Source of the DNA: an uncultured Verrucomicrobiota bacterium | GTDB lineage: Bacteria; Verrucomicrobiota; Verrucomicrobiia; Opitutales; Opitutaceae | DNA length: 64,000 bases | NCBI GenBank assembly: GCA_903904685.1 | Contig: CAIVDS010000021.1 | Span: 1 to 64,000, forward strand | Direction of reading: 5' to 3' | Part shown: piece after piece, positions 9,695-12,983 of the stretch | How positions within the stretch are numbered: position 1 is the first letter of the stretch | Layout: every line of letters begins with the position of its first letter | The notes under the pieces: model-generated | What the model saw: the letters and a program-made list of their open reading frames with translations, nothing else | Databases searched by the model: none | What the model was told of the DNA's origin: nothing | Made by a program: the position numbers and the translations under genes

Positions 9695-11227
9695 ATGTCT
9701 ACTGGTATCGTTTATCTCGTTGGCGCCGGTCCCGGCGATCTGGGCCTTGTCACCTTCCGCGCCAAGGAACTCATCTCCGCGGCCGACGTTCTCGTCTACG
9801 ACTACCTCGTCCATCCCGAGCTCGTCAAATGGTGCCGCCCCGAGTGCGAGATCGTCTATGTCGGCAAACAGTCTGGCTTCCACTCGATCCCGCAGGAGGA
9901 GATCGAGACGATCCTCGTGAAACACGCCAAGGCCGGCAAGAAGGTCGTCCGTCTCAAGGGCGGCGACCCCTACGTCTTCGGTCGTGGCGGCGAGGAAGCC
10001 CGCACCCTCGCCAAGGACGGCATTCCCTTCGAGGTCGTGCCCGGGGTCACCGCCGCGCTTGCCGCCGGCGCCTACGCGGGCATTCCGCTCACCTACCGCA
10101 ACACCAGCACGTCGCTCGTGTTCCTCACCGGCCACGAAGACCCGACCAAGAGGCAAACCCAGGTGGACTGGCGCAGCTACGGCGCGCTCAAGCACGCCAC
10201 GCTCGCGATCTACATGGGCATGGGGAATCTAAAGTTCATCCTCTCCGAACTCGTCGCCGGCGGACTCGACCCGAAGACCCCCGCCGCCGTCGTGCAATGG
10301 GCTTCTCTTGGCCGCCAGCGCAGCGTCGCCGGCACCGCCGCCACGCTCGCCGGCCTCGTCGAAAAATCCGGACTCGCCGCGCCCGCCATCATCTTCGTCG
10401 GCGAGGTCGTGCGCGGCCACGAGGCCATCGACTGGTTCGAGCACCTCCCGCTCTTTGGCCGCCGCGTGGCCATCACCCGCACCCGCGACCAGAACGGCGA
10501 ACTGCGCGAAAAACTCGAAACCCTCGGCGCCGAGGTGCTGGAGTTGCCGCTCATCCGGATCGGCAAATACGTCGAGAAAGACGCGCTCGTCGAAATCCTG
10601 GCCGAGCTCGGCGGCTACGACTGGATCGTGTTCACCAGCGCCAACGGCGTGCGCTATTTCTTCGAGGATTTCCTCAAGGGCTTCCCCGACATCCGCGCGC
10701 TCGGCCTGCTGCGCTTCGCCTGCGTGGGCAAGGCCACCGCCCGCGAGATCGAGAAACACCACATCAAGGTCGAGTGCATGCCCGACACCGCCACCGGCGA
10801 CTCGCTGGCCGACGCGCTCATCGCCACCGGCAGCCTCGACAGCGCCAAGGTCATCGTCGTCACCGGCAATCTCACCCGCGACACGCTCGTGAAAAAGCTC
10901 GAGGCCGCCCGCGCCATCGTGGATCGCCTGCAGCTCTACAAGACCGAGAAAACCGATCTCACCGCCGATCCCATCGCCGACGATTTCCGGGAGAAAGGCG
11001 CCGACGCCATCCTCTTTGCGAGCTCCTCCGCCGTGCAGTCCTTCACCGACCAGGCCAAGTCGCTCAAGCTGGCGAAAGACGCCAGGCGCCCGCTCGCCGG
11101 CAGCATCGGCCCGCAGACCACCGAGACGATGAAGAAGGTCGGCATGGACATCGCCTTCGAGGCCAAGACGCCGAGCCTCGATTCCCTGATCGAAGCGCTG
11201 ATCAAGAACCTGAAAGCCAGCCGCTGA
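9695..11227 (+). CDS. cobA-hemD: Fused uroporphyrinogen-III C-methyltransferase / uroporphyrinogen-III synthase
   Basis: A 510-residue bifunctional enzyme. Residues 3-245 are the SAM-dependent methyltransferase that makes precorrin-2: VGAGPGDLGLVT at 9-20, GGDPYVFGRGG at 89-99, then VPGVTAALAAGAYAGIPLT and the TGHED motif. From about 254 (FGRRVAITRTRDQ) to the end is HemD, which closes hydroxymethylbilane to uroporphyrinogen III, with VFTSANGVRYFFE and ASSSAVQSF. It follows hemC directly, so the two steps from porphobilinogen to uroporphyrinogen III are adjacent. No SD precedes the ATG. Confidence 0.93.
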   Translation: MSTGIVYLVGAGPGDLGLVTFRAKELISAADVLVYDYLVHPELVKWCRPECEIVYVGKQSGFHSIPQEEIETILVKHAKAGKKVVRLKGGDPYVFGRGGEEARTLAKDGIPFEVVPGVTAALAAGAYAGIPLTYRNTSTSLVFLTGHEDPTKRQTQVDWRSYGALKHATLAIYMGMGNLKFILSELVAGGLDPKTPAAVVQWASLGRQRSVAGTAATLAGLVEKSGLAAPAIIFVGEVVRGHEAIDWFEHLPLFGRRVAITRTRDQNGELREKLETLGAEVLELPLIRIGKYVEKDALVEILAELGGYDWIVFTSANGVRYFFEDFLKGFPDIRALGLLRFACVGKATAREIEKHHIKVECMPDTATGDSLADALIATGSLDSAKVIVVTGNLTRDTLVKKLEAARAIVDRLQLYKTEKTDLTADPIADDFREKGADAILFASSSAVQSFTDQAKSLKLAKDARRPLAGSIGPQTTETMKKVGMDIAFEAKTPSLDSLIEALIKNLKASR

Positions 11228-11432: not shown

Positions 11433-11789
11433 AGATCTAAGTAATCCTAAAAAAGCATTAAGAACCCCTAACCAACTATTAAGTAAGACTAACTAACTAT
11501 AAAGTAATCCAAACGAACTATGAAGTAACCCTAAAAAACTATTAAGTAAGCCTAACTAACTATGAAGTAGTCATAAAAAACTATTAAGTAGCCATAACTA
11601 ACTATGAAGTAAGCCAAACGAACTATGAAGTAAGCCTAGCCAACTATTAAGCAGCCCTAAAAAACTATTCAGTAATCCAAACTGAGTATGAAGTAACCAT
11701 AGAAAAGTGTTAAGAAACCTTAACTAGGACTTAAGAAATCCTAAAAAAGACTGAAGTAAGCGTAAGGAAGATTGAAGAAGGTCCGGAAA
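11433..11789. repeat. Array of 21-bp AT-rich tandem units (16 in exact register, plus one decayed)
   Basis: Sixteen consecutive 21-base units run from 11433 to 11768 with no insertion or deletion, and a decayed seventeenth continues to 11789. The consensus is A(C/G)TAT(T/G)AAGTAA followed by GCCTAAMWA. By hand count, columns 8 (A), 9 (G), 11 (A) and 17 (A) are the same in all sixteen units; column 13 and the last four vary most. Units end in AAAAA, AACTA or AACGA. Every frame on both strands contains stops, so it is not coding. At roughly 30% G+C it contrasts sharply with its GC-rich surroundings. The 653-base intergenic stretch 11228-11880 contains nothing else I recognise. A small winged-helix gene starts 91 bases after it. 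Confidence 0.95.
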
Positions 11790-11880
11790 TCATCGAATGT
11801 GCGCTTAAATTCAGGGTCGGAACCCCAAAAACGTCAGTTTTACCCCAAAACGAGCCCATTGGAGGCCAAATTTTCATCTT

Positions 11881-12201
11881 ATGAGCGAAACCAACCCAAC
11901 CATCCCGGAACCGAAGCTCAGTTTGACGCAAGTCCTGACTCTCCTAAGGGACCCGGCGCGCTGGATCGTGCTGCGCGAGCTGAGCAAAGAGCCTGCGCTG
12001 CCCGTCGGTGAGCTGGCGCGGCGGATCGGGGGCCCGCCGAGCGCGGCCTCCAAACACATGGCGCTGATGCTCAGACTCGGCGTGGTGAAGTCGGTGTATG
12101 GCCGGATGTATGCGCTGACGCCCGCCTTTCGTCCAACCCCCGGCACGCTGGAGATCGACTTCGGCCACTGCCTGGTGCGTCTCGACCGCCCGCAGGCCTG
12201 A
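11881..12201 (+). CDS. Small winged-helix (ArsR/MarR-like) DNA-binding protein
   Basis: A 106-residue protein that is mostly one winged-helix domain. TQVLTLLRDPARWIVLRELS is the first helix pair, and LPVGELARRIGGPPSAASKHMALM (split over about 41-64) is the helix-turn-helix. The LGVVKSVYGRMYALTPAF wing follows. There are no cysteine metal-binding pairs typical of metal-sensing ArsR proteins and no ligand domain. It should bind DNA, probably as a dimer. Its position just downstream of the 21-bp array makes that array an obvious candidate target, which is inference only. Confidence 0.7.
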   Translation: MSETNPTIPEPKLSLTQVLTLLRDPARWIVLRELSKEPALPVGELARRIGGPPSAASKHMALMLRLGVVKSVYGRMYALTPAFRPTPGTLEIDFGHCLVRLDRPQA

Positions 12202-12287
12202 GCGAGCCTGTAGCTTGGATTGATAAAACTCGCCGAGGCCCTTTTGGTGACCACCCTTGGCGCAGCGCACAGTCCCAGTTCAGCAAT

Positions 12288-12788
12288 ATGTCCAAAATTA
12301 CTTTCAAGCAAGATTCGGATTTTGGCTGGGAGACGTTCGTCTTAGACGATGATCGACTGATCATTTGCAAAAAAGCTCTGAGCTTTGGCACGGAAACCGT
12401 GATCAAAATAAGTGATGTTTCTTCAGACTACGAACGGGGCAAAGGACGCCTTGGCCTGCTATACATGGTTCCTTTGACTCTCAGCATAATTGCGTTGGTG
12501 GTGACAGTTGCGCTTGTTAAGAAAGATTTGTCACTTGGAGAAGAGCTACCGATATTCCCCGCCGCTCTTACCGTAGTATTTTTATGGCACACCATTAAAG
12601 GCTACCGGCCGATTGATCTCTGCCGTTTTAAGGATAAAAACGGCAAGGTGTTGTTCGAATTGTTTAAGCCCAGAAAATCGTCGCCAGCTTACGAGGAATT
12701 TATTGCCGCCTTGATCTCGGCTCTGACAACAAGCCGGACGAAGAAGATGACATGGGGTGGTCAGGAGGGCGAAGAGCGCCCAACCTGA
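12288..12788 (+). CDS. Hypothetical membrane protein with PH-like layout
   Basis: A 166-residue protein of visibly lower G+C than the housekeeping block. An N-terminal beta-rich segment (FVLDDDRLIICKKALSFGTETVIKISDV) resembles bacterial PH-like domains. Two membrane helices follow at about 56-78 and 89-104, then another beta-type segment (CRFKDKNGKVLFELF). The last 15 or so residues are encoded by a 33-bp direct repeat and a strong hairpin and are probably acquired sequence. No function can be assigned. It resembles an orphan cargo gene. Confidence 0.5.
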   Translation: MSKITFKQDSDFGWETFVLDDDRLIICKKALSFGTETVIKISDVSSDYERGKGRLGLLYMVPLTLSIIALVVTVALVKKDLSLGEELPIFPAALTVVFLWHTIKGYRPIDLCRFKDKNGKVLFELFKPRKSSPAYEEFIAALISALTTSRTKKMTWGGQEGEERPT

Positions 12789-12935
12789 CCACCGATGATG
12801 AAGACTGACGCGAAGGAGAACAGCACCCGCGAACATGCCCCGCAAGGCGATAAGACCACCGGCGTAAAGCTGCGGCGGCTGAAGCTGGGGATCGGCGATC
12901 CAAAGATGACATGGGGTGGTCAGGAGGGCGAAGAG
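12744..12935. repeat. 33-bp perfect direct repeat (12744-12776 and 12903-12935)
   Basis: The two 33-base copies are identical and contain the cores GATGACATGGGGTGG and TCAGGAGGGCGAAGAG. They are 159 bases apart. The first forms the 3' end of the upstream open frame; the second lies in a short frame of 62 codons (12795-12983). The spacer is more GC-rich than the preceding gene. The pattern fits a duplication or the footprint of a small element. Confidence 0.85.
12756..12793 (+). terminator. Strong hairpin overlapping the stop of the preceding gene
   Basis: GGTGGTCAGG (12756-12765) pairs with CCTGACCACC (12784-12793). An inner stem of GGGCG (12767-12771) with CGCCC (12777-12781) closes on an AAGAG loop. 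Fifteen base pairs form with only small bulges. No T-run follows, so it may be a terminator of a non-canonical kind, a processing site or a recombination structure. The left arm is part of the 33-bp repeat; the second copy lacks a right arm. Confidence 0.55.
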
Positions 12936-12983
12936 GATGAAATTCAAAGGGGACTGGCCGTGGTCCCGTGTATTTCACCCTGA
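12795..12983 (+). CDS. Possible 62-codon orphan ORF (doubtful)
   Basis: The frame opens with ATGATG right after the hairpin and ends at 12983. Its product is hydrophilic and mixed-charge (KENSTREH, TTGVKLRRLKLG), with no signal, membrane or family features. Its middle is encoded by the second copy of the 33-bp repeat. I list it so the interval is described; it may be no more than a chance frame. The rest of 12789-13147 holds an attC-like stretch. Confidence 0.2.
   Translation: MMKTDAKENSTREHAPQGDKTTGVKLRRLKLGIGDPKMTWGGQEGEEDEIQRGLAVVPCISP

Follow-up and report, generated by a model that had tools for sequence, protein, structure and literature searches.

The 64-kb window (the whole stretch of DNA that was analysed) contains a genuine and exact array of 21-bp direct repeats, and on comparison of paralogous sequences this array makes up the 5′ portion of a module comprising array, leader and winged-helix gene. 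We tentatively favour the view that the array is a helically phased direct-repeat platform, on which a protein would bind cooperatively to control the genes downstream; we consider this reading possible rather than probable. The features of this part of the window are listed below.

9695 to 11227, forward strand: upstream gene of 510 aa, outside the module, with full-length orthologues (81–86% identical) in congeners that lack the array
11433 to 11789, forward strand: 21-bp repeat array of 17 direct units (register, TRF and autocorrelation), pointing to the downstream gene in the orientation common to other arrays
11790 to 11880, forward strand: leader running from the array to the start codon and conserved among paralogues of the winged-helix gene
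11881 to 12201, forward strand: gene for a 106-aa ArsR/MarR-like winged-helix protein (Pfam HTH_20, 4.6e-8; HTH_5, 3.4e-5), with paralogues and an AlphaFold2 model
12202 to 12237, forward strand: short 3′ segment over which the paralogues remain similar, the approximate 3′ border of the module (flank blastn and 3′ flank alignment)

The first-pass annotation had described 21-base units in exact register without an indel, fixed bases at A8, G9, A11 and A17, and AT-rich DNA that is noncoding in every frame, and all of this was borne out. Moving in steps of 21 from position 11433, there are 16 good units followed by a decayed 17th with zero indels, and the first 16 all have A in columns 8, 11 and 17 and G in column 9; the rotated consensus of the unit is CTAACTAACTATGAAGTAAGC. 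The GC content of the array is 0.32 vs 0.604 for the 64-kb window, and stop codons fall in all six frames between 11400 and 11816, and even the best frame has at least 8. The proposed tandem-repeat check agreed, TRF returning a period of 21 with 73% matches and 0% indels, along with higher-order periods of 42 and 63 that score above 21. Identity at lag 21 over the best 105 bp reaches 0.78 at the array, while the other lags between 12 and 39 reach 0.52 at best in the whole 64 kb. An Rfam search of the window found nothing except one tRNA. Separately, two copies of a sequence of about 33 bp (agatgacatggggtggtcaggagggcgaagag) lie at 12744–12778 and 12903–12938, inside and just past the open reading frame 12288–12788.

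By blastn, the DNA 3′ of the array is paralogous to the flanks of other arrays, and this includes the 106-aa gene. MAFFT alignment of seven paralogous leaders gave the conserved core ...CATCGAAAAT...ACGTC.ATTTTACC.CAAAA...TTTTCATCTT. The encoded protein is basic (pI about 10.0), and its AlphaFold2 model has the expected topology (pLDDT 74.5). On the other side lies the 510-aa gene, which we take to be a uroporphyrinogen-III methyltransferase fused to HemD. At the orthologous place in the congeners the array is absent, and it therefore arrived recently at this site; as the gene order downstream of that site differs between the congeners and the window, exact insertion borders and target duplications are unreadable. 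No forward-strand promoter could be placed, and the gene that follows the winged-helix gene has no Pfam match.

The window array is one of many. In a survey without sequence prior of 13 contigs of the same genome, 1.24 Mb in all, 24 regions of period 21 were detected and none at each of 18, 19, 20, 22 and 23, with the harmonics 42 and 63 also appearing; because some of these regions are fragments of the same array, or are GC-rich and probably coding, the number of loci is better put at about 18. By extrapolation from this sample we estimate 45–50 arrays for the whole 3.2-Mb genome. Further arrays were matched by the window array in blastn, and a pattern search for a trinucleotide recurring at 21-bp intervals added many others, whose units are quite unlike that of the window array. 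The arrays have about 5–25 units of paralogue-specific sequence, and about half of those surveyed in this genome have none of the array-linked genes alongside now. Contigs C12, C49, C67, C98, C100, C108 and C35 end inside or beside arrays; the genomes compared are drafts, the assembly probably breaks at such places, and the true number may be higher. Beside arrays C58a, C67, C85a, C35 and C98 lies a second dispersed repeat, which has a CTTCRYCR core and is weakly periodic at 21 bp. Genes for C5 cytosine DNA methyltransferases, two recognised by Pfam and the third by inspection of the sequence, lie near three arrays (L064, 834–1946; L067, 3475–4602; contig C21, 71278–72474), which suggests that the surroundings of arrays are also places where foreign genes are acquired. 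Among the congeners, an 800-kb sample of G010 had no period-21 array, the one array described for it below lying outside the sample, and G002 has many 7-bp GAGCTAN-type tandem arrays in place of 21-bp ones (C1; L102, L103 and L116–L118).

The arrays stand before genes of three sequence-unrelated families. The winged-helix family has eight copies in this genome, every one with an upstream array, and a search of 131 further genomes of the order gave no member at E ≤ 1e-12. Family ii encodes helical proteins of about 240 aa, with 12 matches in this genome (some truncated) and one in G010 that has its own period-21 array of unrelated unit; the family has no Pfam match, and a PDB fold search gave no significant match. 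In family-ii genes (L137, about 1300–1500; L136, upstream of 2205) period 21 continues into the coding sequence of the N-terminus, where it yields heptapeptides such as PSTGTEI/PSANTES. When 183 genomes of the order were scanned with trinucleotide patterns, which miss arrays without the trinucleotide concerned, several unlike 21-bp arrays were identified in G158, a genome from another bacterial family. Two of these lie upstream of members of an orphan family, family iii, and protein searches located more members in G158 and G115, here too with period-21 arrays upstream. Families ii and iii show no significant homology to each other (hhalign probability 0.7%).

When upstream regions from the three families and four genomes were scored, lag 21 was the highest of 52 lags in 27/27 testable cases, the weak ones being L242 and L246 (0.55–0.56). 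It was highest, weakly, in 3/25 downstream regions, and 1–3% of random stretches had lag 21 highest with an identity of 0.55 or more. In this genome the association of array with gene was first seen and then tested, and seven of the family-iii loci, located by protein alone, provide an independent test. The family-iii member of the more distant genome G459 has no array, and the array is thus not obligatory. Array units share no sequence between the four genomes, which represent two bacterial families. Because the same period with differing sequences precedes three unrelated orphan families, it seems to be the spacing, and not the sequence, that is kept.

It had also been claimed that spacing is constant while sequence drifts, and this held beyond the window, period 21 recurring with unrelated units in four genomes. 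In 29 arrays we counted about 7 phase changes (4 by a cyclic profile model and 3 by eye where the model became stuck) against 2804 mismatches, whereas the winged-helix leaders have 6 indels against 146 mismatches (p = 2e-5); relative to this small leader control, indels in the arrays are about 15-fold too few. Gaps between close paralogous arrays are mostly of whole units, while more distant pairs align poorly and their gaps are mixed. The annotation had expected microsatellite noise to appear as one scattered unit at variable spacing, and the reverse was found, with differing units at constant spacing. When arrays are oriented to the downstream gene their similarity is higher on the same strand (mean z 0.93) than on the opposite strand (0.09), a result that is partly circular for gene-free arrays, whose strand was set by resemblance. 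The units have no dyad above that of column permutations (Fisher p = 0.68), and dyad operators, including the palindromic operator of a dimeric ArsR/MarR repressor, were accordingly rejected. Absence of a dyad together with same-strand similarity towards the gene fits head-to-tail binding.

Column conservation has a modest 10.5-bp component (p = 0.008; p = 0.025 for lag 10.5 on 18 mostly independent arrays). DNA bending, another of the original suggestions, found no support, the window array being no more curved than its own column-permuted versions (p = 0.64), and intrinsic curvature was discarded as a general trait since p = 0.002 on an overlapping set became p = 0.08 on mostly independent arrays. 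Sub-repeats of 7 bp were likewise rejected, as lags 7 and 14 were no higher than in permutations. The AT content of units in this genome's arrays has a weak period-7 component that fits none of the explanations considered here.

It can be seen from these results that the period is kept despite drift of sequence, that units are gained or lost whole, and that the arrays are noncoding, share an orientation and have a fixed position upstream of small, multicopy orphan genes. This combination fits a cooperative protein-binding role, and we propose that the array acts in cis as the 5′ portion of a dispersed module made up of array and gene. Since 21 bp is two turns of B-DNA, the core of each asymmetric, AT-rich unit would face one side of the helix, and a DNA-binding protein might load along the array cooperatively and head to tail, the bound array then setting the expression of the following gene. 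In the window the likeliest binder would be the basic winged-helix protein encoded directly 3′ of the array, which would make the arrangement autoregulatory. Families ii and iii are not recognisably DNA-binding, and the binder there would have to be a host protein. More speculatively, the arrays might constitute a new class of bacterial cis-element set by period rather than by sequence; they would be acquired in front of multicopy genes that are unrelated and lineage-restricted, would move together with them, and would be read by a nucleoid protein sensitive to phase. We regard this wider proposal as a fair possibility, if less likely than not.

A specific pairing of protein with array was looked for in the co-variation of recognition helix and array and was not found. 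The winged-helix paralogues are most variable at residues 51–60, the start of the recognition helix (p = 0.013), and almost no synonymous change is seen there. How alike two arrays are is correlated with similarity in the rest of the protein (rho 0.61) and not with that in the recognition helix (rho 0.14, not significant), so that specific pairing is unsupported. This result, the roughly half of the surveyed arrays that are gene-free, the array-less gene of G459, the non-significant bending of independent arrays and the failure to place a forward-strand promoter all count against the platform.

The main rival of a binding platform is a dispersed satellite, in which the arrays would derive from an ancestral array by drift and whole-unit homogenisation and ride along with copied orphan genes, their period inherited and functionless. 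Several pairs of arrays are indeed plainly homologous, including pairs that cross gene families (e.g. C39/C114b), and higher-order periods of 42, 63 and 126, arrays standing without genes, array similarity that follows co-inherited protein similarity and a recent, lineage-specific expansion are all consistent with this explanation. However, a satellite does not account readily for the deficit of indels against leader DNA, for strictly upstream placement, or for the recurrence of period 21 in another bacterial family where unit and gene family are both unrelated, and we consider it a serious contender that is somewhat unlikely to be correct. A third and more speculative option, which we think improbable, is that arrays are made de novo at certain loci by a process of mutation or copying that advances in fixed steps of 21 nt, in which case the period would belong to a putative enzyme and no binding would be needed. 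The sharing of period 21 alone by unrelated sequences in two bacterial families would then be explained, as would its extension into N-terminal coding sequence at some loci. Against this, many arrays of one genome are homologous and share an orientation, so that copying of existing arrays accounts for much.

We attach very little weight to the possibility that the arrays encode, or once encoded, heptapeptide repeats, seven codons being 21 bp. Some arrays are open in one frame (L015, 1327–1755) and heptapeptides occur at the N-terminus of one family-ii protein (L137), but the arrays show no codon-like column pattern or 3-periodicity (Fisher p = 0.99) and stops are not avoided relative to column permutations (p = 0.9997; p = 1 on independent arrays), and the window array has stops in all frames. 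A coding origin was rejected on these grounds.

Plasmid iterons, which work with winged-helix Rep initiators, are direct repeats arranged head to tail at a spacing of about two helical turns. The position of the window array, direct repeats at two-turn spacing just 5′ of a small winged-helix gene, resembles this arrangement, and the first-pass annotation had raised an origin or a partition site as a possibility. However, an iteron/Rep origin has one locus per replicon and an initiator gene beside its repeats, whereas here there are tens of chromosomal arrays with differing units (24 period-21 regions in 1.24 Mb) placed before small paralogous genes, and the adjacent gene encodes a single-domain protein of 106 aa. 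Neither the list of open reading frames nor the Pfam search of the next gene showed a replication initiator or a partition motor next to the window array, and GC skew, a check that had been suggested, does not turn at the array. Searches of phages, plasmids and viral contigs gave only generic 34% ArsR matches for the winged-helix family, and no relatives of families ii and iii in plasmids or viral contigs; a phage or plasmid origin was rejected. We conclude that an iteron-type origin or a plasmid-type centromere (Rep-iteron, ParR-parC or TubR-tubC) is most unlikely.

Small winged-helix proteins that bind direct-repeat arrays are nevertheless known. TubR of the type III partition system TubR-tubC represses its own operon from an upstream direct-repeat array (PMC5016525), and the window likewise has a small winged-helix protein with direct repeats upstream; unlike that system, no TubZ GTPase (tubZ) was seen among the open reading frames around the array or by Pfam in the next gene, and there are many arrays per genome, homology having been compared by Pfam only. 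BldC, a small MerR-like winged helix-turn-helix protein, binds cooperatively, head to tail and on one face, to asymmetric direct repeats of variable number, which are one helical turn apart and fewer (PMC5859096). The units here are also asymmetric direct repeats without a dyad, whereas the window protein is of HTH_20/ArsR/MarR type by Pfam, with no MerR match, and the arrays are longer in units. The cooperative binding of BldC and TubR to direct-repeat arrays indicates that small winged-helix proteins are capable of it, and we do not claim membership of either family. Repeats of the TAACTGA heptamer also form many intergenic direct-repeat arrays, often before start codons and patchy by lineage (PMC4679880), all of which resembles the present case; those have a single fixed 7-bp sequence, whereas the present arrays combine a fixed period with a free sequence. 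The 21-bp arrays do not have the 7-bp period of heptanucleotide STRR-type repeats, a type that is present in the congener G002.

A search of the open-licence literature on tandem repeats, iterons and Verrucomicrobia/Opitutaceae gave no description of such arrays. The repeat-based control elements described so far are, to our knowledge, recognised through their sequence. If the spacing is kept by selection, these arrays would be a natural experiment on how much the helical period alone can specify, and they would offer a route towards finding the protein that reads a 21-bp spacing. If it is not, they would represent a rare bacterial case of satellite-like DNA that spreads with orphan gene families.
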